The translations under genes were made by a program, and so were the position numbers. Below are positions 1 through 59,394 of a stretch of DNA of 64,000 nucleotides, piece by piece. This DNA is from Castor canadensis (Eukaryota; Chordata; Mammalia; Rodentia; Castoridae), in the NCBI RefSeq assembly GCF_047511655.1, contig NC_133398.1:50845638-50909637 (forward strand), read 5' to 3'. Positions within the stretch are counted from its first letter, which is position 1; the number at the start of each line of letters is the position of its first letter. The notes beneath the pieces were generated by a model. The model searched no databases, was not told where the DNA came from, and was given only the letters and a program-made list of their open reading frames with translations.

Positions 1-905
1 TGGCTTTATCTTGTTCTTGTTTTTCTAGTAGTTTGAGATGCAACAATAGGTTGTTTATTTGAAGTCTTCCTGTGCTTATAATATAAGTATTCATGGCTGT
101 AAACTTTCCTCTTAGCACTGCCTTTGCTGTGTTACATCAGTTCCAATTGATTATGCTTTCCTTCTTATTAAATTCCAGGAACTTTCTGATTTCCTCCCTT
201 ATTTCTTTGATGACTTCATGGAGCAACATGTTGTTTAGTCACCAGGTATTTGAGTATTTTCTCCTGTTTCTTTTGTAATTGAGTTCTAGTTTTATGCCAT
301 TGTGGTCAGATAGTATGCATGAGTTTATTTCAATTTTCTTATAAATGTTAAGACTTGCTTTGTGACCTAAAATATGTTCTATTTTGGAGAAAGTTCATGG
401 GCTGCTGAGAAGAATATATATTGTGTTGTTATAGGATGGAATACTCTATAGACATTGGTCAGGTCATACAATTCTAAAGTTTCTTTGTTGACTTTTTGTC
501 TGAATGACCTATCTATTGGTGATAGAGGAGTACTGAAGTCTCCTACTATCACGGTGTTGGGGTCGTTTTGTGTTTTTAAATCCAATAGTGTATGTTTGAT
601 GAAGTTGGGTACACTGACATTAGGCACATGTAAGTTAATGATTTTTATTTCTTCTTGGTGTATTGCAAATATTATTAGTATGTAGTGACATTCTTTGTCA
701 CTTCAGATTAATTTAGATTTGAAGTCTACTTTGTCTGATATAAGTATAGTTACTCCTGCCCTGTATTCAGGGGCCATTAGCTCGGTAAATCTTTTTCTCC
801 CCTTTCACCCTAAGCCAATATTTGTTTCTGTCTGTAATTGGGTTTCTTGTAAGCAACAACTCCTCAAATATTCCTTTTTAATCCACTTAGTAAGAAATTT
901 TTGAA
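1..905 (-). mobile_element. Old L1 fragment (ORF2 endonuclease region), cut by window edge
   Basis: The minus strand encodes decayed L1 ORF2 endonuclease sequence, including a GDFSTPLSPIDRSF segment (about 379-627) that matches [14 protein letters not shown] of the younger L1 copies in this window. The frame is broken many times. The same old L1, with the same right-hand end, recurs at 24300-27325, so it was present before the flank was duplicated. It continues beyond the left window edge. Confidence 0.85.
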
Positions 906-1344
906 AGATGGAAACACCTGTCACCACTCTGTTTATCAGAACCTGGTAAAGCACAACACATGGTCATATTTGAAAGTCACTGTTAGTAAGAGAAAATGTA
1001 AGAATATTGTATGTTAAAGATTGTATTTGTGTAATTGTTATGAAGTCTGTGAAATTTATAAATCTGAAAAGATAAAGAGCTTTCTCTCAACAAAACTGTC
1101 AAATAGGCCTAACAATGCTTACTCAAGGAGACAAATCCAGAGAACAAAGGAGGCAAAAAGACCTCATGATAAGAGGTGAGCTTTTGTTTTTAGAAGATCA
1201 CTATTTACCTGGGTTTGACTTTATCCTAGAGACTTTTCTCATTGACATACTTAAACCCATTGCTTGAACAACTGAAGTTTTTTAAGAAAAATTAAACTCA
1301 AATTTTAAAACAACAGAAAAGATTAATTCTATTATTTTTTGTCC

Positions 1345-1425
1345 TGTAAGGTTTGAACTCAGGTGTTTGTGACATCTGGGCAGGAATTCTTACCACTTGA
1401 ACAACATACCCAGCCCCTTTTTCTC
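1345..1425 (-). mobile_element. tRNA-derived (ID/B4-like) SINE fragment
   Basis: On the + strand the block reads GTTTGAACTCAGG ... ACCACTTGAACAACATACCCAGCCCC, the reverse of an ID/B4-type tRNA SINE with B-box and A-box remnants. The copy in the duplicated flank lies at 27770-27855. The family call is from memory of rodent SINE consensus features. Confidence 0.55.
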
Positions 1426-2010
1426 TAGTTATTTTGGTGATAAGGTCTTTGTTATGCTTGGCTTGTGCTGTCTATTTATGCAGCTTGAAAGGCTCACACT
1501 AACAGGTTCAATCATTGCTTGAGATGTGGGTGTGGGGATGTCTCACAAACTTATCAATATTTAAGAGAAAAAGTAAAGTTAGGTGAAAACACGCTTTTGA
1601 AATAAAAGATTATACCACAGAACCCACAAATAGCAGTCAGAAAACAAGAGAATATGTAATTTTTAGATTAAAATATGTCAGAATTTCAAAATATGAGACT
1701 TATTAATTGATTAAAACATACAATATAGGATTCTACATTAGATTCTAGACTCTGCCAACCCATATATTTGATCCTCGGTAATTCATTTAACTTCTCTGAG
1801 CCTCAGTTTTCACAAATGTAATGTAGAGTGGACATATTCATATAGTTATCCATATCAAACACTCTAAAACTTTTAGAAGCCCTTAGCAGAGTATCTCCTC
1901 ATTCCCTGTGAGTGAGGGATAAGAGATTGTCACTATTCTCTTATTTATTCCTAAGGACCTGTATGTCAATAGGGAACTCCCCTATTTCTCTGATGGTAAA
2001 GTGCAAGCAG

Positions 2011-2850
2011 TAATATAAATTATAACAACTACTATGGAAATCTAGTAACACTAGAAGTGTTATATGATACAGCAATACTACCACTCCTGATAATAAATCA
2101 GAAGGAATGTAAGTCAGGATATAATAGAAACACTTGCACACCCATGTTTATTATAGCACTATTCACAATAACCAAGCTATGCAAATAACCCAATGCCATA
2201 AGACTGATATATATAATTCAGCCATAAAGAAAAACAAAATTACGTAGTTTGCAGCTAAATGGATGGAACTGAAGATCATCATGTTAAGTGAGGGAAGCCA
2301 GGTTCAGAAAGACAAAGTTCACATATTTTTTCTCATATGTAGAAGATAGATCCAAAGGTTAAACATATACACAAATATATAAATGATCCTATGTAGGTGT
2401 GGGTGGGTGTGCATAAAACATGCTGTAACAATGAGCTGTTTGAGGGTAAAATGATAGGGGGAAGGGAAGGAAAAGAGAATGATAGAGTATGAATAATAAA
2501 AATACATTGAGTCTATGTAGAAAGATGGCACTGAAAGTCATTGGATAACAGGAGATTGGGGGGGAAGGGAAAGGGAAAATAATACAGGGTGTTTGATTAA
2601 GGTGCAATATATTCATGGGTGAAATATCATGGCAAAACCCTTTTGAAAAATCAATATACACTTTAGAAAATGCAGGACAAGAATATAAAACAAGGGGATG
2701 AGTGAGAATGATGGTGGCAGTGAAACTGTAACCAAGGAATGTTCTAAGTATGCATAAAAATGTCACAATGAAACACCCTGTACAACTAATATATGCTAAT
2801 AAAATGTTTTAAAAAAAATAAATCATTTAAAATATCAAAAAAGAATGAAT
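2011..2850 (+). mobile_element. 5'-truncated L1, ORF2 C-terminus, 3' UTR and A-rich tail
   Basis: The sequence matches the 3' part of the L1 fragment at 18710-19640 (cccatgtttatt..gcactattcacaata, aaatggatggaactg). It ends with ctgtacaactaatatatgc, an AATAAA-like signal and an A-rich tail. It sits exactly where duplication copies 1 and 2 stop matching, so it inserted at, or accompanied, the breakpoint. Confidence 0.8.
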
Positions 2851-4100
2851 CATTAAATCATATTGGAGTAGATTAGAGGTGAATAAGAGAAATTAGTGAG
2901 ACAACATCCAGTAGACACTTGGTATCCACAGGTATATGGTTCCAAGATCACCACTGAGGAAAAATCATGATTACTCAGGATGCATAGGGTTCTATGCTGT
3001 ACTAGGAATTCTTGATTCATTTTTCCCTTAACACCACCCAACTTCCACAAAAAATATGTCATCTTTCAATAAATTTCAGATTTTTACTTTATCACTTCAA
3101 ATAAACATAATTCACTTTTACCTTGCTGTTTGGACACCTTTTAGCTTTAAGGAAGCAGATTTTCACAAAATTAAGGACAGGGAAATTCTCAGCAGATCAC
3201 ACAGGAATTAAAAATCAGTGACTATAATGAGGATCTGACAGAAACATTAGCTGCATCATTTGAGCTGTGAAATGTACATGGTTCATTTAAAATATCTGTT
3301 TTTGAAATTTCTTTTTATATTTATTTATTTGTTAACATACTTGGTCAAAACAGCATATGATAAATCCATATGTAAGGTGGCATTACTAAGTATAAAAAAT
3401 AATGCTGAGAGGTTGGCCTTGCAAAATGGAAGCGACAAGTAGGGTTGGATCTGAGAAAGAATGTCAATTATTTTTCTCTACCCAGTTTTTTCTTTTGTGG
3501 AATATGCTTCAGTCCAAATACAATTCATGGACTTAATGTACTTATACATCAAACACATATTAATGTGCTTCATATTTTATTTTTAAATCATGATCGATTC
3601 AATAACAATGATAATTTATAATTATTTTGCTTAGTACTACATTGAATACCAGTGAGCTGCACTATGGATAGACACCATCATTACAGTGAGAAAGCAGAAT
3701 TGTGACAGCTGCATAAGTAGAGTTAAGGAGTAAAAATGACACTGGGGTTTAAGGAAAGTGAAAAGGATGAAAGAAGCCTACCATTGTCCTTTTCTCTCCC
3801 AAGGAGTCAATCACTTTCCTGCTTCCACTTTCACTATATTCATATTAGTATTTGTTTTCCTTTTCCTCCATGCTCTGACCTGTAATAGAAGATTTCCAGG
3901 AGTGTTGACTGGAGAAAGAAAAACAGTAATACATCAAAGATGATTGAGAGTAATTGTTCAGGACCTTTGTGTTATCACTTTTACTTTGCTTACTTTATTT
4001 CTAATCCCAAGATACAGAGAAAGTAAGACAAAGGCAGGAGAAGTCCAAGTTTAAATTAGTAGGGACACCCTCTCCCAAAAGCAACAGTCAAAAAGAACAA
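2851..4100. other. Unassigned intergenic DNA
   Basis: AT-rich sequence without a recognisable gene, RNA gene or repeat family. Open frames are under about 90 codons and look random. No counterpart was recognised in units 2 and 3. Confidence 0.5.
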
Positions 4101-4107
4101 CAAAAAG

Positions 4108-4195
4108 GGTGAGGGTATAACTCAAGTGGTAGAGCACCTACCTAAAAACTATTTCAAAAGCAGGCTAACTTCATTTACCCTTGTACTCTGAGTTT
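4108..4195 (+). mobile_element. ID-like tRNA SINE (decayed)
   Basis: The block gagggtataactcaagtgg followed by tagagcacctacc resembles the tRNA-derived head of an ID element (A-box region ctcaagtggtagagc). The B-box half is weak and no clear A-tail is left. Confidence 0.5.
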
Positions 4196-4397
4196 CATTA
4201 TGCCACATCAGCTCTGCGACATGAGGACCCAAAAGCACAGTTGAAATGGCCTTGTTTTATGGACAGGTAGAAGAGTAGGTAAAGACAGCAGACGTAAGTG
4301 CCTGAAGAGGAGAAGGCAAAGGAGAGAACGGGATATGGGGTTTTTTTTATCATACTTTTCCCTTTTTTGCAATACACAAAAACCACCTGGTCTCCTA

Positions 4398-5010
4398 AAT
4401 AGATGAAGAAAAAGTCTTTGGCAAAATTCAATACTCTTTCATGAAAAAAGCTCTGAAGAAATTAGGACTAGACGGAATGCTCCTCAACATAATATAAGTT
4501 AAATATGACAAACCTAGAGCCTACATTATACTAAATGGAGAAAAACTGAAACCATTCCTCCTTAAGTCAGGAACAAGACAGGGATGCCCACTTTCCCCGC
4601 TTCTATTCAATATAATTTTGGAATTCCTAGACAGAGCAATAAGACAAGAGCAAGAAATAAAAAGGATTCAAATAGAGAAAGAAGAAGTCAAACTATCCCT
4701 ATTTGCAGAGGACATAATCCTATACCTAAAAGACCCTAAAAACTCTACCACCAAAGTATTAGAAATCATACTCTTGGCAAAGTGGCAGGATACAAAATTG
4801 ATATACAGAAACCAATATCCTTCTTATATACCAACAATGAACAGACTGAGAAAGAAATCAGGGAAGCAATCCCATTTACACTAGCCTCAAAAGAATAAAG
4901 TACCTCAGGATAAATTTTAAAAAGGAAACCAAAGATCTTGTCAATGAAAACTATAAACCACTGAAGAGACCCACTGTTCATGAGTTGTTAGAATCAACAT
5001 TAATAACCTT
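4398..5010 (+). mobile_element. Internal L1 ORF2 fragment (reverse transcriptase)
   Basis: In the + frame it encodes decayed reverse transcriptase: a [20 protein letters not shown] block near 4570-4630 and an altered [15 protein letters not shown] (FADD in intact copies) near 4700-4745. Both element ends are missing. It is older than L1 copies A-C by divergence. Confidence 0.8.
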
Positions 5011-5138
5011 AATAATTGCTTATAATAATAGTTTATCACATATTTAATCAACAACACTTTACTCACCATTAATAAACAAAGTCTATTTTTTGTAACTTTT
5101 TAAAATTTTATTATTATTTTTTAGCAATGGGAGATACA

Positions 5139-5163
5139 GTTTATTTATTTATTTATTTATTTT
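5139..5163. repeat. (TTTA)n simple repeat
   Basis: A run of about six TTTA units just left of L1 copy A. Confidence 0.85.
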
Positions 5164-5763
5164 TATGGAGGTTATTGTTCTGTCTCCCCTCTGAATATCC
5201 ATCACTGATTATTCCAAAGGAATGTTAATCAGGGAGACTGGATTCCCAGGACGGACCTTTTATTTTTTTTTTTCATTTTTCTTTTATTATTCATATGTGC
5301 ATACAAGGCTTGGATCATTTCTCCCCCCTGCCCCCACCCCCTCCCTTACCACCCACTCTGCCCCCTCCCTCTCCCCCCTACCCCCTCAATACCCAGCAGA
5401 AACTATTTTGCCCTTATTTCTAATTTTGTTGTAGAGAGAGTATAAGCAATAATAGGAAGGAACAAGGGGTTTTGCTGGTTGAGATAAGGATAGCTATACA
5501 GGGCAATGACTCACATTGATTTCCTGTGCGTGGGTGTTACCTTCTAGGTTAATTCTTTTTGATCTAACCTTTTCTCTAGTACCTGTTCCCCTTTTCCTAT
5601 TGGCCTCAGTTGCTTTAAGGTATCTGCTTTAGTTTCTCTGCGTTAAGGGCAACAAATGCTAGCTAGTTTTTTAGGTGTCTTACCTATACTCACCCCTTCC
5701 TTGTGTGCTCTCGCTTTTATCATGTGCTCATAGTCCAATCCCCTTGTTGTGTTTGCCCTTGAT

Positions 5764-8700
5764 CTAATGTCCACATATGAGGGAGAACATACGATTTTTG
5801 GTCTTTTGGGCCAGGCTAACCTCACTCAGAATGATGTTCTCCAATTCCATCCATTTACCAGCAAATGATAACATTTCGTTCTTCTTCATGGCTGCATAAA
5901 ATTCCATTGTGTATAGATACCACATTTTCTTAATCCATTTGTCAGTGCTGGGGCATCTTGGCTGTTTCCATAACTTGGCTATTATGAATAGTGCCGCAAT
6001 AAACATGGGTGTTCAGGTGCCTCTGGAGTAACAGTCTTTTGGGTATATCCCCAAGAGTGGTATTGCTGGATCAAATGGTAGATTGATGTCCAGCTTTTTA
6101 AGTAGCCTCCAAATTTTTTTCCAGAGTGGTTGTACTAGTCTACATTCCCACCAACAGTGTAAGAGGGTTCCTTTTTCCCCGCATCCTCGCCAACACCTGT
6201 TGTTGGTGGTGTTGCTGATGATGGCTATTCTAACAGGGGTGAGGTGGAACCTTAGCATGGTTTTAATTTGCATTTCCTTTATTGCTAGAGATGGTGAGCA
6301 TTTTTTCATGTGTTTTCTGGCCATTTGAATTTCTTCTTTTGAGAAAGTTCTGTTTAGTTCACGTGCCCATTTCTTTATTGGTTCATTAGTTTTGGGAGAA
6401 TTTAGTTTTTTAAGTTCTCTATATTTGCTGGTTATCAGTCCTTTGTCTGATGTATAGTTGGCAAATATTTTCTCCCACTCTGTGGGTGTTCTCTTCGGTT
6501 TAGAGACCATTTCTTTTGATGAACAGAAGCTTTTTAGTTTTATGAGGTCCCATTTATCTATGCTATCTCTTAGTTGCTGTGCTGCTGGGGTTTCATTGAG
6601 AAAGTTCTTACCTATACCTACTAACTCCAGAGTATTTCCTACTCTTTCTTGTATCAACTTAAGAGTTTGGGGTCTGACATTAAGATCCTTGATCCATTTT
6701 GAGTTAATCTTGGTATAGGGTGATATACATGGATCTAGTTTCAGTTTTTTGCAGACTGATAACCAGTTTTCCCAGCAGTTTTTGTTGAAGAGGCTACTAT
6801 TTCTCCATCGTATATTTTTAGCTCCTTTGTCAAAAATAAGTTGCTTATAGTTGTGTGGCTTCATATCTGGGTCCTCTATTCTGTTCCACTGGTCTTCATG
6901 TCTGTTCTTGTGCCAGGACCATGCTGTTTTTATTGTTATTGCTTTGTAATATAGTTTGAAGTCAGTTATTGTGATACCTCCTGCATTGTTCTTTTGACTG
7001 AGTATTGCCTTGGCTATTCGTGGCCTCTTGTGTTTCCATATAAATTTAACGGATTTTTCAATCTCTTTAATGATTGTCATTGGAATTTTGATGGGAATTG
7101 CATTAAACATGTAGATTACTTTTGGGAGTATAGACATTTTTACTGTGTTGATTCTACCAATCCATGAGCATGGGAGATCTCTCCACTTTCTATAGTCTTC
7201 CTCAATCTCTTTCTTCAGAAGTGTATAGTTTTCCTTGTAGAGGTCTTTCACATCTTTTGTTAGGTTTACACCTAGGTATTTGATTTTTTTGAGGCTATTG
7301 TAAATGGAATTGTTTTCATACATTCTTTTTCCGTTTGCTCATTGTTAGTGTATAGAAATGCTAATGATTTTTCTATGTTGATTTTATATCCTGCTACCTT
7401 GCTATAGCTATTGATGATGTCTAGAAGCTTCTGAGTAGAGTTTTTTGGGTCTTTAAGGTATAGGATCATGTCGTCTGGAAATAGGGATATTTTGACAGTT
7501 TCTTTACCTATTTGTATTCCTTTTATTCCTTCTTCTTGCCTAATTGCTCTGACTAGGAATTCCAGTACTATATTGAATAGGAGTGGAGATAGTGGGCATC
7601 CTTGTCTGGTTCCTGATTTTAGAGGGAATGGTTTCAGTTTTTCTCCATTAAGTATAATGCTGGCTGTAGGTTTGTCATATATAGCTTTTATAATGTTGAG
7701 GAACTTTCCTTCTTTTCCTAGTTTTCTTAGAGCTTTTATCATGAAATGATGTTGGATCTTATCAAAGGCTTTTTCTGCATCTATTGAGATGATCAAGTGG
7801 TTTTTGTCTTTGCTTCTGTTAATGTGGTTTATTACATTTATTGATTTTCATATGTTGAACCACCCCTGCATCCCTGGGATGAAGCCTACTTGGTCGTGGT
7901 GAATAATCTTTTTGATGTGTTGCTGAATTCGGTTTGCCATTATTTTGTTGAGGATTTTTGCATCAATGTTCATTAAGGAGATTGGCCTATAGTTCTCCTT
8001 TTTGGAGGTGTCTTTGCCTGGTTTTGGGATAAGTGTAATACTGGCTTCATAAAATGTGTCTGGCAGTTTTCCTTCCCTTTCTATTTCATGGAACAGTTTA
8101 AGGAGGGTTAGTATCAGTTCTTCTATAAAGGTCTGAAAGAATTCAGCAGAGAATCCATCAGGTCCTGGACTTTTCTTTTTGGGGAGACTCTTGATTGCTG
8201 CTTCAATTTCATTTTGTGTTATAGGTCTATTCAGGTGATTAATTTCCGCTTGGTTCAGTTTTGGATGATCATATGTATCTAGAAATCTGTCCATTTCTTT
8301 TAGATTTTCAAATTTATTTGAATATAGGTTCTCAAAGTAGTCTCTGATGATTTCCTGGACTCCCATGGAGTTTGTTGTTATCTCCCCTTTTGCATTCCTA
8401 ATTCTACTAATTTGGGTTTTTTCTCTCCTCATTTTAGTCAGGTTTGCCAGGGGTCTATCGATCTTGTTTATTTTTTCAAAGAACCAACTTTTTGTTTCAT
8501 TAATTCTTTGTATGTTTTTTTTGGTTCCTATTTCGTTGATTTCAGCTCTTATTTTTATTATTTCTCTCCTTCTATTTGTTTTGGGATTTGCTTGCTCTTG
8601 TTTTTCTAGGAGTTTGAGATGTATCATTAGGTCATTGATTTGGAATCTTTCAATCTTTTTAATATATGCACTCATGGCTATAAACTTTCCTCTCAAAACT

Positions 8701-10816: not shown

Positions 10817-11327
10817 TGTCTTGATGTTGTTACTATCCCTGTACTGTGTGCAATTAACTATTTTCTAGCTTGTAATAATAACAATGGTAATATTTAGAAT
10901 GGAAGGGTGAGCTGAGATGCAAAGCAAGAAGTTAAAGAAAAGGGGAAAACAAATCTACAGACAAGAGGGAGAAAGAAGAACAAGGTATCAGACAAGAGAG
11001 TTTCAAAGGTATAAACAGGGAGTGTTAGTGTACTAATCGACAGTAAGCTGAACAGACATTAGAGAGACAGAGAGAGGATTGAAAATCAAAGAAAAAAATA
11101 AAAAAATAAGTAAATGAAAGTAATATCTATATATAAAAATGAATTAAAACAAAATGGAAAATAGAAAATTAAAAAAAAAAAAAAACTTCCAAGTTTATAT
11201 GCAATGCAGTTTCAGTCTTAATAATTTGGGTGTCTGTCTCAATCTCCAGTCCTGGAGTCGGTGCCTCAGATGTTGTTCTGTAGTTGTCTCATCAAAAGGG
11301 ATGCATAAAGTAGTACAAAACTACACA

Positions 11328-11329
<2 letters not shown>

Positions 11330-11373
<44 letters not shown>
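11330..11373. repeat. (AC)n microsatellite in L1 copy A 5' UTR
   Basis: A run of 22 AC/CA dinucleotides. Copy C has only a short GT-rich stretch at the matching place (about 59100-59120), so the run expanded in copy A after insertion. Confidence 0.95.
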
Positions 11374-11377
<4 letters not shown>

Positions 11378-11717
11378 CCCCACCAAGTGTCCTAAGTTCA
11401 AATGCAATACAGTTTCAGTAAGTTTTTTGGCTTGCAGGTGTAATTCGGTTGTTCTCTCATCAAAGGTAGGGAGAAAAAGAAAAAAAGCGTCTGGAGGCAG
11501 TTCTGAGAGTGGTATCTGCAACTGTGGCTTGCCTGCCTGCTGCTCTCAGCCTGTAGCTGGTGGCGTTATTTATGCAGATCTCTGGGGTGAACTTAGCACT
11601 CACCTGGTCACACAGGCTTTCTTTGCTCAGAGTTCTCTTGTGCGGGAGCCTCTGCTACAGCTTTCCCCTTTCCAATCACTGGGAAAGGTGACACTGCCCA
11701 AGCGTTGTCAGGCCTGC

Positions 11718-11975
11718 ATGTTTATTTACAGTTCATGTGGGAGGTGGGTCTTCCCCCCTCTCCTGTGGAGTTTTCCTCCCACTGCCACTTTTACAGGCTT
11801 TCCTGCTCCTGCTTACTGGGTGGTGCTGCTGCTCCTGCCCGCTGCCATGTTTATTTACAGTTCACGTGGGAAGTGGGTTTTTCCTCCTCTCCTGTGGAGT
11901 TTTCCTCCCTCAGCCACTCTCACAAGCTTCCCTGCTCCTGGTTGCTGGGTGCGCCCCGCTCCCACCAGAGGCTCT
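11718..11975 (-). repeat. Two 129-bp tandem units in L1 copy A 5' UTR
   Basis: The segment starting catgtttatttacagttca at 11718 repeats at 11847, exactly 129 bp on. A third, partial match begins near 11991. Copy C carries the same two units at the same spacing (matching points 58615 and 58744). 129 is divisible by three, so an antisense frame stays open across the repeats. Internal tandem units in an L1 5' UTR recall the promoter monomers of mouse L1; a promoter role here is inference. Confidence 0.8.
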
Positions 11976-12680
11976 CCGGCCCGCCCGGCTTGTTTATTTA
12001 CAGTCCGGGGAAGGATTCCCTTCCCCCAATCTTCAGCACTCAGGGCGCCCCACCCTCTTTCCAGCGTGCCTTAACTGTTCTTATTGCTTATTACTCAGTT
12101 TCTCTTTTTTCCCTGGGTGGAGGTCAGTCTGTCCAGGGGGCTATGCTGCTCTGGCTCAGGCTTGTCTGTGGGGGTACCGCGGTACCGTGAAGCTCACCTG
12201 GTCCGCGTCTTCCCAAGCCGTATGGGCGCTGGCCACTGGCGGCTCCGGGGGCCCTCCTCGTTTCTCTGTTTAACATGAAGTGGGGATTCTCTGCACCAGC
12301 TGGAGATGTGGAGGGGTCAAAGTTATGCCTTTTCTCAGTGATTATGCCTGCAAAGTGTATCTCCTGCGTCTCTCCAAGATTTCATTATAGGAGGGTCGCT
12401 TTCTGCTTCCTACCTCTAGCCGCCATCTTGGAATCCCCAGGACTCCAGTTTATTTATAATAGCTGCAATAGGGGCCAGGAAAACACACAGTTAATCAGCT
12501 ATCTGTATAGGATAGATTACTTATGCAAAAATAAGAATCTCCAAAACAAAGAACCTGGTGAGTTTCATACTACAATCCCCCAATGATCCCAGCATGAGAT
12601 AATGCCAGGCCTTAGCCCCTGGGCATGCAGTGGTGAGAACTAATGTATGGAAGAAAAAGCCACAAACCACAGAAAATTTA

Positions 12681-46500: not shown

Positions 46501-46515
46501 TCAAATTGAATTTTT
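46501..46515. repeat. Target-site duplication, left copy (L1 copy B)
   Basis: TCAAATTGAATTTTT, identical to 52547-52561. The last T run merges with the poly-T of the element, so the right edge is ambiguous by a few bases. Confidence 0.93.
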
Positions 46516-47004
46516 TTTTTCATTTTTCTTTTATTATTCATATGTGCATACAAGGCTTGGTTCATTTCTCCCCCCTGCCCCCACCCCCTCCCTTACCACC
46601 CACTCCACCCCCTCCCGCTCCCCCCCTCAATACCCAGCAGAAACTATTTTGCCCTTATCTCTAATTTTGTTGTAGAGAGAGTATAAGCAATAATAGGAAG
46701 GAACAAGGGGTTTTGCTGGTTGAGATAAGGATAGCTATACAGGGCATTGACTCACATTGATTTCCTGTGCGTGGGTGTTACCTTCTAGGTTAATTCTTTT
46801 TGATCTAACCTTTTCTCTAGTTCCTGGTCCCCTTTTCCTATTGGCCTCAGTTGCTTTAAGGTATCTGCTTTAGTTTCTCTGCGTTAAGGGCAACAAATGC
46901 TAGCTAGTTTTTTAGGTGTCTTACCTATCCTCACCCCTCCCTTGTGTGCTCTCGCTTTTATCATGTGCTCATAGTCCAATACCCTTGTTGTGTTTGCCCT
47001 TGAT

Positions 47005-50000
47005 CTAATGTCCACATATGAGGGAGAACATACGATTTTTGGTCTTTTGAGCCAGGCTAACCTCACTCAGAATGATGTTCTCCAATTCCATCCATTTACC
47101 AGCGAATGATAACATTTCGTTCTTCTTCATGGCTGCATAAAATTCCATTGTGTATAGATACCACATTTTCTTAATCCATTCGTCAGTGCTGGGACATCTT
47201 GGCTGTTTCCATAACTTGGCTATTGTGAATAGTGCCGCAATAAACATGGATGAGCAGGTGCCTCTGGAGTAACAGTCTTTTGGGTATATCCCCAAGAGTG
47301 GTATTGCTGGATCAAATGGTAGATCGATGTCCATCTTTTTAAGTAGCCTCCAAATTTTTTTCCAGAGTGGTTGTACTAGTCTACATTCCCACCAACAGTG
47401 TAAAAGGGTTCCTTTTTCCCCGCATCCTCGCCAACACCTGTTGTTGGTGGTGTTGCTGATGATGGCTATTCTAACAGGGGTGAGGTGGAATCTTAGTGTG
47501 GTTTTAATTTGCATTTCCTTTATTGCTAGAGATGGTGAGCATTTTTTCATGTGTTTTCTGGCCATTTGAATTTCTTCTTTTGAGAAAGTTCTGTTTAGTT
47601 CACATGCCCATTTCTTTATTGGTTCATTAGTTTTGGGAGAATTTAGTTTTTTAAGTTCCCTGTATATTCTGGTTATCAGTCCTTTGTCTGATGTATAATT
47701 GGCAAATATTTTCTCCCACTCTGTGGGTGTTCTCTTCAGTTTAGAGACCATTTCTTTTGATGAACAGCAGCTTTTTAGTTTTATGAGGTCCCATTTATCT
47801 ATGCTATCTCTTAGTTGCTGTGCTGCTGGGGTTTCATTGAGAAAGTTTTTACCTATACCTACTAACTCCAGAGTATTTCCTACTCTTTCTTGTATCAACT
47901 TAAGAGTTTGGGGTCTGATATTAAGATCCTTGATCCATTTTGAGTTAATCTTGGTATAGGGTGATATACATGGATCTAGTTTCAGTTTTTTGCAGACTGC
48001 TAACCAGTTTTCCCAGCAGTTTTTGTTGAAGAGGCTGCTATTTCTCCATCGTATATTTTTAGCTCCTTTGTCAAAGATAAGTTGCTCATAGTTGTGTGGC
48101 TTCATATCTGGGTCCTCTATTCTGTTCCACTGGTCTTCATGTCTGTTTTTGTGCCAGTACCATGCTGTTTTTATTGTTATTGCTTTGTAATATAGTTTGA
48201 AGTCAGGTATTGTGATACCTCCTGCATTGTTCTTTTGACTGAGTATTGCCTTGGCTATTTGTGGCCTCTTGTGTTTCCATATAAATTTAACGGATTTTTC
48301 AATCTCTTTAATGAATGTCATTGGAATTTTGATGGGAATTGCATTAAACATGTAGATTACTTTTGGGAGTATAGACATTTTTACTGTGTTGATTCTACCA
48401 ATCCATGAGCATGGGAGATCTCTCCACTTTCTATAGTCTTCCTCAATCTCTTTCTTCAGAAGTGTATAGTTTTCCTTGTAGAGGTCTTTCACATCTTTTG
48501 TTAGGTTTACACCTAGGTATTTGATTTTTTTTGAGGCTATTGTAAATGGAATTGTTTTCATACATTCTTTTTCCGTTTGCTCATTGTTAGTGTATAGAAA
48601 TGCTAATGATTTTTCTATGTTGATTTTATATCCTGCTACTTTGCTATAGCTATTGATGATGTCTAGAAGCTTCTGAGTAGAGTTTTTTGGGTCTTTAAGG
48701 TATAGGATCATGTCGTCTGCAAATAGGGATATTTTGACAGTTTCTTTACCTATTTGTATTCCTTTTATTCCTTCTTCTTGCCTAATTGCTCTGGCTAGGA
48801 ATTCCAGTACTATGTTGAATAGGAGTGGAGATAGTGGGCATCCTTGTCTGGTTCCTGATTTTAGAGGGAACGGTTTTAATTTTTCTCCGTTAAGTATAAT
48901 GCTGGCTGTAGGTTTGTCATATATAGCTTTTATAATGTTGAGGAACTTTCCTTCTATTCCTAGTTTTCTTAGAGCTTTTATCATGAAATGATGTTGGATC
49001 TTATCAAAGGCTTTTTCTGCGTCTATTGAGATGATCAAGTGGTTTTTGTCTTTGCTTCTGTTAATGTGGTTTATTACGTTTATTGATTTTTGTATGTTGA
49101 ACCACCCCTGCATCCCTGGGATGAAGCCTACCTGGTCGTGGTGGATAATCTTTTTGATGTGTTGCTGAATTCGGTTTGCCATTATTTTGTTGAGGATTTT
49201 TGCATCAATGTTCATTAAGGAGATTGGCCTATAGTTCTCCTTTTTGGAGGTGTCTTTGCCTGGTTTTGGGATAAGTGTAATACTGGCTTCATAAAATGTG
49301 TTTGGCAGTTTTCCTTCCCTTTCTATTTCATGGAACAGTTTAAGGAGGGTTGGTATCAGTTCTTCTTTAAAGGTCTGATAGAATTCAGCAGAGAATCCAT
49401 CAGGTCCTGGACTTTTCTTTTTGGGGAGACTCTTGATTGCTGCTTCAATTTCATTTTGTGTTATAGGTCTATTCAGGTGATTAATTTCCGCTTGGTTCAG
49501 TTTTGGATGATCATATGTATCTAGAAATCTGTCCATTTCTTTTAGATTTTCAAATTTATTTGAATATAGGTTCTCAAAGTAGTCTCTGATGATTTCCTGG
49601 ATTTCCATGGTGTTTGTTGTTATCTCCCCTTTTGCATTCCTGATTCTACTAATTTGGGTTTTTTCTCTCCTCATTTTAGTCAGGTTTGCCAGGGGTCTAT
49701 CGATCTTGTTTATTTTTTCAAAGAACCAACTTTTTGTTTCATTAATTCTTTGTATGGTTTTTTTGGTTTCTATTTCGTTGATTTCAGCTCTTATTTTTAT
49801 TATTTCTCTCCTTCTATTTGTTTTGGGATTTGCTTGTTCTTGTTTTTCTAGGAGTTTGAGATGTATCATTAGGTCATTGATTTGGGATCTTTCAATCTTT
49901 TTAATATATGCACTCATGGCTATAAACTTTCCTCTCAAGACTGCCTTAGCTGTGTCCCATAGGTTCCGGTAGGTTGTGTTTTCATTTTCATTGACTTCTA

Positions 50001-50820
50001 GGAACTTTTTAATTTCCTCTTTTATTGCATCGATGATCCATTCTTCATTAAGTAATGAGTTATTTAGTTTCCAGCTGTTTGCATGTTTTTTGTCTTTACT
50101 TTTGTTGTTGAGTTCTACTTTTACTGCATTGTGGTCAGATAGTATGCACGGTATTATTTCTATTTTCTTATATTTGCTGAGGCTTGCTTTGTGCCCTAGG
50201 ATATGATCTATTTTGGAGAAGGTTCCATGGGCTGCTGAGAAGAATGTATATTGTGTAGAGGTTGGATGAAATGTTCTATAGACATCTACTAGGTCCACTT
50301 GATCTATTGCATATTTTAGATCTTGGATTTCTTTATTGAGTTTTTGTTTGGATGACCTATCTATTGATGATAATGGAGTGTTAAAGTCTCCCACAACCAC
50401 TGTGTTGGCGTTTATATATGCTTTTAGGTCTTTTAGGGTATGTTTGATGAAATTGGGTGCGTTGACATTGGGTGTGTACAGATTGATGATTATTATTTCC
50501 TTTTGGTCTATTTCCCCTTTTATTAGTATGGAATGTCCTTCTTTATCTCATTTGATCAATGTAGGTTTGAAGTCTACTTTGTCAGAGATAAGTATTGCTA
50601 TTCCTGCTTGTTTTCGGGGGCCATTAGCTTGGTAAATCTTCTTCCAGCCTTTCATCCTAAGCATATGCTTATTTCTGTCGGTGAGATGAGTCTCCTGTAA
50701 GCAACAAATTGTTGGATCTTCTTTTTTAATCCATTTTGTCAAACGGTGTCTTTTGATGGGTGAATTAAGTCCATTGACATTAAGTGTTAGTACTGATAGG
50801 TATGTGGTGATTCCTGCCAT
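47005..50820 (-). CDS. ORF2: L1 ORF2 (endonuclease and reverse transcriptase), copy B, one in-frame TGA
   Basis: A single frame of 1272 codons, from [20 protein letters not shown] to the terminal stop, interrupted only by TGA at 50548-50550 (codon 91). Endonuclease: [39 protein letters not shown]. Reverse transcriptase: [67 protein letters not shown] and an intact FADDMILYL. The C-terminus has [18 protein letters not shown]. The product nicks target DNA and copies L1 RNA at the nick (target-primed reverse transcription). Starts 50 nt after ORF1. Whether the TGA is a lesion or a subfamily feature is open, since copies A and C have it too. Confidence 0.92.
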
Positions 50821-50870
50821 TTAGTTATCTTAGTTGTTTGAAGGTTTGATTGTGTGTACCTAACTTGATG

Positions 50871-52073
50871 TTACTCTCTACTGTCTTGCTTTTTCTTATC
50901 CTGTGGTTTGGTGCTGCCTGCCTTTTCATGGTTGAGTTGGGTGTCACTTTCTGTGTGCAGGATCCCTTGCAGAATCTTTTGTAATGGTGGCTTTGTGGTC
51001 ACATATTGTTTTAGTTTCTGCTTATCATGGAAGACTTTTATTGCTCCATCTATTTTGAATGATAGCTTTGCTGGGTAGAGTATCCTGGGGTTGAAGTTAT
51101 TTTCATTCAGTGCCCGGAAGATCTCACCCCACGCTCTTCTTGCTTTTAATGTTTCTGTTGAGAAGTCTGCTGTGATTTTGATGGGTTTACCTTTGTATGT
51201 TACTTGTTTTTTCTCTCTTGCAGCCTTCAATATTCTTTCCTTAGTTTCTGAACTTGTTGTTTTAATGATGATATGTCGTGGAGTAGTTCTATTTTGATCT
51301 GGTCTGTTTGGTGTCCTGGAGGCCTCTTGCATTTGTATGGGAATATCTTTCTCTAGATTTGGGAAATTTTCCATTATTATTTTGTTGAATATATTACGCA
51401 TTCCCTTCGCTTGCACCTCTTCTCCTTCTTCGATGCCCATGATTCTCAAGTTTGGTCTTTTGATGGAGTCGGTGAGTTCTTGCATTTTCTTTTCACAGGT
51501 CTTGAGTTGTTTAATTAATAGTTCTTCGGTTTTTCCTTTAATTACCATTTCATCTTCAAGTTCTGAGATTCTGTCTTCTGTTTGTTCTATTCTGCTGGAT
51601 TGGCTTTCCGTTTTGTTTTGCAGTTCTGTTTCATTCTTTTTTCTGAGGTTTTCCATATCCTGGCTGTTTTCTTCTTTATTGTTGTCTATTTTTGTCCTGA
51701 GTTCATTTATCCATTTATTCATTGTGTTCTCTCTTTCACTTTGGTGTTTATACAGTGCTTCTATGGTTTCCTTTATTTCTTCTTTTGCTTTTTCAAATTC
51801 TCTATTTTTATTGTCTTGGAATTTCTTGAGTGTCTCCTGTACATTTTGGTTGACCCTATCCAGTATCATCTCTATAAAATTCTCATTGAGTACTTGTAGT
51901 ATGTCTTCTTTTAAATTATTCTTGTAGGCTTCATTGGGTCCTTTGGCATAGTTTATCTTCATTTTGTTGGAGTCTGGCTCTGAGTTTCTGTTCTCTTCAT
52001 TCCCCTCTGGTTCCTGTACTAATTTTTTGCTGTGGGGAAACTGGTTTCCTTGTTTTTTCTGTCTTCCTGTCAT
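50871..52073 (-). CDS. ORF1: L1 ORF1 protein, copy B, intact
   Basis: 400 codons starting MTGRQKKQGNQFPHSKK. It has a basic N-terminus, a long Glu/Lys-rich coiled coil (about residues 50-210), the RRM-like core RPNLRIMGIEEGEEVQAKG and a C-terminal domain ending in KPQDKKKQDSRE. ORF1p is the RNA-binding, nucleic-acid chaperone partner of ORF2p. The frame stays open upstream to 52253 but without an ATG, so the ATG at 52073, shared by position with copies A and C, is chosen. Confidence 0.93.
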   Translation of the reverse strand: MTGRQKKQGNQFPHSKKLVQEPEGNEENRNSEPDSNKMKINYAKGPNEAYKNNLKEDILQVLNENFIEMILDRVNQNVQETLKKFQDNKNREFEKAKEEIKETIEALYKHQSERENTMNKWINELRTKIDNNKEENSQDMENLRKKNETELQNKTESQSSRIEQTEDRISELEDEMVIKGKTEELLIKQLKTCEKKMQELTDSIKRPNLRIMGIEEGEEVQAKGMRNIFNKIIMENFPNLEKDIPIQMQEASRTPNRPDQNRTTPRHIIIKTTSSETKERILKAAREKKQVTYKGKPIKITADFSTETLKARRAWGEIFRALNENNFNPRILYPAKLSFKIDGAIKVFHDKQKLKQYVTTKPPLQKILQGILHTESDTQLNHEKAGSTKPQDKKKQDSRE

Positions 52074-52304
52074 TGTCCTTGGTGTTGTTACTGTCCCTGT
52101 ACTGTGTGTAATTAAATATTTTCTAGCTTGTAATAATAACAATGGTAATATTGAGAACGGAAGAGTGAGCTGAGATGGAAAGCAAGAAGTTAAAGAAAAG
52201 GGGAAAACAAATATACAGACAAGAGGGAGAAAGCAGAACAAGGTATCAGACAAGAGAGTTTCAAAGGTATAAACAGGGAGTGTTAGTGTACTAATCGACA
52301 GTAA

Positions 52305-52306
52305 GC
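52305..52306 (-). other. Exon-exon junction in L1 copy B 5' UTR
   Basis: The sense strand reads GCGGACCAG|CTTACTGTC. Left of the bar equals copy A up to its donor (AG|GTGAGC); right of it equals copy A from its acceptor (TTCAG|CTTAC). A 3-base identity (CAG) at both edges allows a shift of up to three bases, but the GT-AG placement is exact. Confidence 0.85.
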
Positions 52307-52546
52307 TGGTCCGCGTCTTCCCAAGCCGTATGGGCGCTGGCCACTGGCGGCCCGGGGGCCTCCTCGGTTCTCCGTTTAACGTGAAGTGGAGATTCTCTGC
52401 GCCGGCTGGAGATGTGGAGGAGTCAAAGTTATGGCTTTTCTCGGTGATTATGCCTGTAAAGTGTGTCTCCAGCGTCTCTCCAAGATTTCACTGTAGGAGG
52501 CTCGCTTTCTGCTTCCTACCTCTAGCCGCCATCTTGGAATTCCTCC

Positions 52547-52561
52547 TCAAATTGAATTTTT
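52547..52561. repeat. Target-site duplication, right copy (L1 copy B)
   Basis: TCAAATTGAATTTTT, identical to 46501-46515. It continues into tataggaaagattctt, which matches the unit 2 spacer (tataggaaaaattctt, about 38330). Confidence 0.93.
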
Positions 52562-58289: not shown

Positions 58290-59394
58290 GTGAGCTTCGT
58301 GGTACCGCAGTACTCCCACAGACAAGCCTGGGCCAGAGCAACATAGCCCCCTGGACAGATGACCTCCACCCCGGGGAAAAAAAGAGAAAATGAGTAATAA
58401 GCAATAAGAACAAATAAGACACGCAGGAAAGAGGGTGGGGCACCCTGAGTGCTGAAGATTGGGGGAAGGGAATCCTTCCCAGGACTGTCCCTCTGGCAGG
58501 AGCAGGGGCGCGTGCCCAGCAACCAGGAACGGGAAAGCTTGTGAGAGTGGCAGAGGGAGGAAAACTCCATAGGAGAGGAGGGAAGACCCACTTCCCACGT
58601 GAGCTATAAACAAACATGGCAGCTAGCAGGAGCAGCAGCACCGCCCAGTAATCAGGAGCAGGAAAGCTTGTGAAAGTGGAGGTGGGAGGAGAACTGCACA
58701 GGAGAGGGGGAAAGACCCACCTCCCACATGAACTGTAAATAAACATGCAGGCCTGAGAATGTGGGTGCAGTGTCACCTTTCCCAGTGCTTGGAAAGGGGA
58801 AGGCTTGTAGCAGAGGCGCACACACAGGAGAAATCTGAGCAAACAAAGCCTGCAGGTCCAGGTGAGTACTAAGCTCACCCCAGAGATCTGAATAAATAAC
58901 GCCTCCAGCAACAGCAGGCTGACAGCAGCAGGCAGGCAAGCCACAGTTGCAGATACCACTCTCAGAACTGTCTCCAGACTCTTTTTTTTTTCCTTTGTCT
59001 CCCTACCTGTGATGAGAGAACAACCGAATTACAACTGCAAGCTAAAAAACTTACTGAAACTGTACTGCATTTGAACTTGGGACACTTGGTGGGGTTTTTT
59101 TTGTGTGGGTGTGTGTAGTTTTGTTCTACTTTATGCGTCCCCTTTGATGAGACAACTACAGAACAACATCTGAGGCACCATCTCCAGGATTGGAGACTGA
59201 GACATCACTGCATTTGAACTTGGAGGTTTTTTGGTTTTTTGGTTTTTTGGGTTTTTTTAATTTTCTATTTTTTCATTTTATTTTAATACATTTTTATATA
59301 TAGATTTTTCTTTCATTTACTTGTTTTTTATTTTTATTCTTACCTTTTTTTTTTGATTTTCAAACCTCTCTCTGTCTCTCTAATGTCTGTTCAG
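58290..59394 (+). other. Predicted intron in the 5' UTR of L1 copy C
   Basis: Donor AACCAG|GTGAGC (58290-58291 = GT) and acceptor ctctctgtctctctaatgtc..TGTTCAG|CTTAC (AG at 59393-59394). The 1105-nt block is the counterpart of 11048-12197 of copy A and is absent from copy B. Exon 1 would be about 242 nt; exon 2 reaches the ORF1 ATG after 231 nt. Confidence 0.75.

Follow-up and report, generated by a model that had tools for sequence, protein, structure and literature searches.

Three L1 copies and a junction within the 5' UTR

The window, a 64,000-nucleotide stretch of Castor canadensis contig NC_133398.1, carries three L1 copies (A, B and C) of one family. Element B spans positions 46516–52546 on the minus strand, and its identity as LINE-1 is supported by a domain scan of its ORF1 and of its reverse transcriptase part. 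ORF1 (50871–52073, minus strand) is open over 400 aa, in keeping with its description as intact in an earlier note on this DNA, and holds Transposase_22 and Tnp_22_dsRBD, the RBD-like and dsRBD-like domains of L1 ORF1p. The largest open part of ORF2 that begins with a Met (47008–49917, minus strand; 970 aa) holds the reverse transcriptase domain (RVT_1, E = 2.5e-47), and an interruption of the frame lies upstream, near the start of ORF2. The element is bounded by a perfect 15-bp target-site duplication (TSD), AAAAATTCAATTTGA, whose copy at the 3' end (46501–46515) is identical at 15/15 bases to that at the 5' end (52547–52561). A short poly-A tail, read in its context at 46510–46520 (minus strand), merges with the first As of the TSD; duplication and tail had both been claimed in the earlier note.

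The 5' UTR of B comprises two parts. The first, here called exon 1, is a retained stretch of 241 nt read in the sequence (52306–52546, minus strand), and the second, exon 2, is a stretch of 232 nt aligned with unspliced copies and reaching the start of ORF1 (52074–52305, minus strand). The two are joined as GGACCAG/CTTACTGTC at 52306/52305 on the minus strand (the slash marks the junction), with the last base of the first part at 52306 and the first base of the second at 52305. The word GACCAG/CTTACTGTC occurs once within the window (52297–52311, minus strand). Close to the 5' end, exon 1 contains the word AAGATGGCGGC (52525–52535, minus strand), which we take to be similar to the YY1 site of human L1.

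Relative to the unspliced copies measured, B lacks a block of 983–1150 nt at this junction. In copy A the block is 1150 nt long (11048–12197, minus strand; GT starts at 12197 and AG ends at 11048), and in copy C it is 1105 nt long with the same two edges (58290–59394, plus strand); these coordinates and lengths agree exactly with those reported earlier. Both blocks begin with CAG/GTGAGC and end with TGTTCAG/CTTAC, and B joins their outer edges precisely, again as claimed. Since CAG stands at both edges, the placement is ambiguous by 3 nt, and one of the possible placements is GT...AG. The donor consensus is CAGGTRAGT, which the donor of the block matches at 8/9 positions, and a pyrimidine-rich stretch lies ahead of the acceptor. 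The young unspliced copies measured have the donor CAG/GTGAGC (26/26) and the acceptor TGTTCAG/CTT (26/26), with an intron length of 983–1001 nt in these 26 ORF1 relatives of B. The exact GT-AG edges relative to unspliced relatives, together with the TSD and the poly-A tail, are features of SpIREs (spliced integrated retrotransposed elements), and copy B is a SpIRE by those features that can be tested in sequence.

In each of the 26 young copies that were measured, the block contains 25–33 CpGs and 3–4 ATGs. Exon 1 of an unspliced leader (L041) contains 15 CpGs; loss of the block takes away most of the leader CpGs.

Genome-wide counts of the junction and of the intact edges

The frequency of the two forms was estimated with 27-mer patterns allowing up to 2 mismatches in the 2.81-Gb genome, using reversed patterns as controls. 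The junction pattern matched at 319 places, at least 100 of them exactly, and its reversed control at 0, so the junction is not a product of chance. The intact-donor pattern was found at 6562 places (control 0) and the intact-acceptor pattern at 8421 (control 0), the latter count also including copies truncated at the 5' end whose sequence stops within the block. Of the copies reaching the donor edge, spliced ones thus make up 319/6881, or 4.6%, as counted by 27-mers and not from annotation. Most copies that reach this edge keep it, the reverse of the picture that the earlier note had set against its own reading, namely a subfamily mostly without the block and with varied breakpoints.

If the block were a later insertion, the short form would be ancestral, and the spliced copies L015 and L016 do branch next after C and A in a midpoint-rooted tree of the sample. 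The block is nevertheless present in both A and C, which diverge most among the alignable copies in hand, the older copy C differing by 4.8% from the copy nearest to it in the sample; this runs against absence of the block from the ancestral form, which the earlier note had named as a second outcome that would tell against it. The edges of the block are moreover splice sites, and the donor is found at 6562 places. On these grounds a later insertion was rejected, and we regard its probability as close to negligible.

Deletion between two CAG words, by DNA microhomology or by reverse transcriptase template jumping, would explain the CAG at both edges, and the alignments of unspliced neighbours of two spliced copies (L023 and L017, discussed below) start at the shared CAG. 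A 3-nt word, however, occurs very often in 1 kb, and such a process would be expected to yield many different breakpoints, whereas identical GT-AG edges are found at 319 places. Exon-1 ends joined to neither the donor nor CTTAC were found at 21 places genome-wide, with a pattern that takes exact ends only, excludes joins with second base T, fourth A or fifth G, and therefore sees about 42% of random joins. Judged by their first five bases, 13 of the 21 resemble small changes of the donor: four (GCTCA) a one-base donor loss, seven (ACCTT or ACCTG) a three-base change before GT, and two (GCTCC) another small change. The remaining 8/21 consist of three ACACC joins and five single cases, one of which is GGACA. 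Copy A has an AG/ACACC that precedes the main acceptor by 186 nt, and L041 and C have an AG/GGACA that follows it by 208–209 nt, near the ORF1 start; these two joins are possible uses of other splice acceptors, five bases being too few for a claim of splicing. The counts so far indicate that one edge pair dominates, and with the recurrent GT-AG edges and the 21 alternative joins seen by this pattern, deletion between CAG words was rejected as highly implausible.

Spliced copies among their unspliced relatives

Many independent insertions sharing one junction had been proposed as a check on the splicing reading, and such insertions were found. A search with the junction region of B gave 1551 candidates, of which 40 were scored. 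All 40 span the junction; B is one of them, and from the remaining 39 a set of 20 was retrieved together with the flanks. The exact 14-base core of the junction is present in 20/20 of these, their 5' flanks differ when compared by eye, and 19/20 have an L1 start of the AAGATGG type. TSDs of 11–17 bp were found by script in 14/21 spliced copies (B and 13/20 others), and in 7/20 fetched copies the script found no TSD or no L1 start. Both reading frames are open in 7/20 (ORF1 400 aa; ORF2 1271–1272 aa, as against at most 970 aa from a Met in B), and in the sister spliced copy L018 endonuclease and reverse transcriptase lie in a single frame of 1272 aa. Individual copies differ in other respects. 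The downstream part of L026 does not align with the other spliced copies (about 35% different), and at the diagnostic sites L013 is a mosaic that reads in order as 5 older, 3 young, 1 older and 3 young, so that it may represent either an intermediate or a recombinant lineage. The sequence after the tail of L028, in its 3' flank, resembles by eye what is presumably a GAPDH processed pseudogene.

The closest relatives of B by ORF1 are mostly unspliced. Among the best 40 matches listed, 30 loci were read, and these comprised two spliced copies (B and L033) and 28 with an intact acceptor, 26/28 of which also have the donor. Over about 2.9 kb, spliced L033 and unspliced L041 are 0.03% apart; for B the figure is 0.27%. 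A 260-kb interval (C7:83.30–83.56 Mb) contains seven of the 28 unspliced relatives (L045–L051) as near-identical copies, probably as a tandem or segmental duplication and not as separate insertions, so these seven are not independent among the 28.

Similar mixtures were observed elsewhere in the family. For L019, a copy of group II, 30 of the best 40 ORF1 matches fall within the portion of the genome covered by a complete list of exact junctions, and L019 alone is in that list, a check that passes over mismatched junctions and truncated copies. The haplotype of L009, L012 and L018 is found at 11 places, five of which have the young background by eye; three of these are spliced (the copies named) and two, read directly, have an intact acceptor. 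The haplotype of L017 and L020 likewise has 11 carriers, of which three are spliced, five are unspliced and three were not classed.

Whole-element neighbours were scored for two spliced copies, counting as unspliced any alignment that starts at or next to the CAG before exon 2, the block itself being seen in fetched copies only. The 24 scored neighbours of L023 comprise 20 unspliced, two contiguous (L023 itself and C2:145942318) and two truncated, from a query that included all of exon 1 and is thus biased towards spliced copies. For L017, whose query included 25 bases of exon 1 and is slightly biased in the same direction, 25 were scored, with six contiguous (L017 included) and 19 unspliced. 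The five other contiguous neighbours of L017 and C2:145942318 are all in the independent junction list, and one of the 19 unspliced neighbours, C1:15943863, is also in the genome-wide donor list. The neighbours of L023 show no excess of spliced copies (1/21). Those of L017 are spliced in 5/24 cases vs 4.6% overall (p ~0.004 by a plain binomial test that takes no account of relatedness, of how L017 was chosen or of the small scoring bias towards spliced copies).

Shared 3' transductions provide a further link between the two forms. A 115-nt stretch of foreign 3' sequence precedes the final tail of L017 (plus-strand 388–502). An unspliced element at C8:139504317-139510238, which carries the L017/L020 haplotype, aligns from the edge of exon 2 into this transduction and stops two bases before its end (query 23–5947 of 5949), so one source lineage gave both spliced and unspliced forms. 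Three more alignments, one spliced (C12:20557916) and two unspliced (C4:152952710 and C16:86808954), end about 45 bases into the foreign stretch, and these alignment ends suggest an earlier and shorter transduction. L023 has a 304-nt 3' transduction (plus-strand 265–568), which besides L023 matches C20 at 126.28 and 126.52 Mb, two places separated by 243 kb. At both places it maps in two pieces with 58 extra genome bases at the same point, and the break (GTATAT/GTTAAA) does not look like a splice. No match to C20 at 126 Mb was found among the 24 scored neighbours of L023.

A tree of 45 sequences gave a contrary result, which bears on the possibility that one splice or deletion event founded a self-propagating lineage of spliced L1, B included. 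The spliced label changes five times on this tree vs a mean of 15.2 when labels are shuffled, with 0/500 shuffles as low, and its well-supported branches force only two changes. In addition, most spliced copies of group II are closer to one another than to any unspliced copy in hand. The tree left out the cluster duplicates L046–L051 and the rearranged L026, and its sample combined unspliced copies nearest to the ORF1 of B with spliced copies nearest to its 5' UTR, without unspliced copies of group II. Such a choice makes the tree weak in either direction, and the clustering of labels is in part a sampling effect. Position-based checks speak for unspliced members within group II. With this sample, the case for recurrence rests on the L009/L012/L018 haplotype, the L017/L020 haplotype and the neighbours of L017.

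Clustering of the spliced copies in the sample in hand would fit a single founder, as would a junction common to 319 copies, the open reading frames in 7/20 fetched copies and a retained 241-nt stretch that still contains CpGs and a YY1-like word. Such a founder would not place the same derived haplotypes on unspliced copies in three separate groups, since a spliced lineage cannot give the intron back. Gene conversion aside, the unspliced haplotype carriers rule out one spliced founder as the sole cause, and we consider this origin very unlikely. Unspliced members occur in both haplotypes and in the young lineage, and as the intron cannot be regained, at least three independent events of splicing followed by retrotransposition are required if gene conversion and repeated mutation are left out of account. 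There were probably many more than three. The distribution of copies thus supports recurrent splicing and not one event or one spliced lineage, and some secondary spread of spliced copies within the haplotypes may have occurred alongside it.

Proposed origin and comparison with human SpIREs

The best explanation, in which we have high confidence, is that L1 RNA was spliced within its 5' UTR and then retrotransposed, repeatedly and in different sublineages. Retrotransposition of a spliced L1 RNA had been put forward in the earlier note for copy B; it stands as the best reading with 319 junction places vs 6562 intact-donor places, and is here refined to recurrent events. A full-length, unspliced L1 of the young subfamily would be transcribed, and the spliceosome would take out about 1 kb of the 5' UTR, from CAG/GTGAGC to TGTTCAG/CTTAC, the removal at the RNA level being deduced from genomic copies. 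The spliced RNA would still have served for the production of ORF1p and ORF2p, and these proteins, probably made from the same RNA (cis-preference), would have reverse-transcribed it into a new site. Integration would have proceeded by target-primed reverse transcription, giving the TSD and the poly-A tail. The process would recur in different sublineages, with the unspliced form staying the main propagating one. Spliced products may have a weak promoter here and be dead ends; the 241 nt of the first leader part are kept with their YY1-like word, so any loss of promoter function is presumptive.

A further idea on why the intron persists, namely that it benefits the element, draws on the HUSH-type silencing of intronless L1 RNAs (PMC13174262). 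Splicing of a share of the RNA could label the transcript as one that bears an intron and protect it from this silencing, with the unspliced RNA continuing to propagate the element. We consider such a benefit improbable. If it were true, spliced insertions would be its visible by-product and would be more frequent in some subfamilies.

A search of the open-licence literature, by titles and the starts of abstracts, found no report of SpIREs outside primates among the entries listed. As an independent case, with splice sites other than the human ones, hundreds of copies and a share near 4.6%, the present elements would point to splicing within the 5' UTR as a general leak in the mammalian L1 life cycle and not a quirk of primate L1. 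With shared 3' transductions linking spliced and unspliced siblings, source loci with high splicing could also be named.

According to Larson et al. (2018; PMC5860796), human SpIREs within the 5' UTR use the donor G98U99 with the acceptors A620G621 or A788G789. The elements described here resemble human SpIRE97/622 and SpIRE97/790 in being full-length, in lacking a GT-AG block within the 5' UTR, in having an untouched ORF1, a TSD and a poly-A tail, and in being recurrent yet only a small share of full-length copies (PMC5860796). They differ from these human elements in an exon 1 of 241 nt in B and a block of 983–1150 nt, as compared by positions and not by alignment of the 5' UTRs, which agrees with the expectation of different sites in the earlier note. 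The share of 4.6% obtained with 27-mers is somewhat higher than the approximately 1.8% reported for human SpIRE97/622 (116/6609 annotated full-length L1PA1–L1PA6; PMC5860796), the two counts having been made differently. Human SpIRE97/976 is likewise a retrotransposed spliced L1 RNA, but it splices from the 5' UTR into ORF1 and encodes a truncated ORF1p, whereas ORF1 is intact here (PMC5860796). In humans the promoters of the spliced products are weak, and the same paper terms these products dead ends (PMC5860796). In the RAP1GDS1/L1PA2 chimeras, a human SpIRE that had borrowed a gene promoter was involved in further retrotransposition (PMC13174262).
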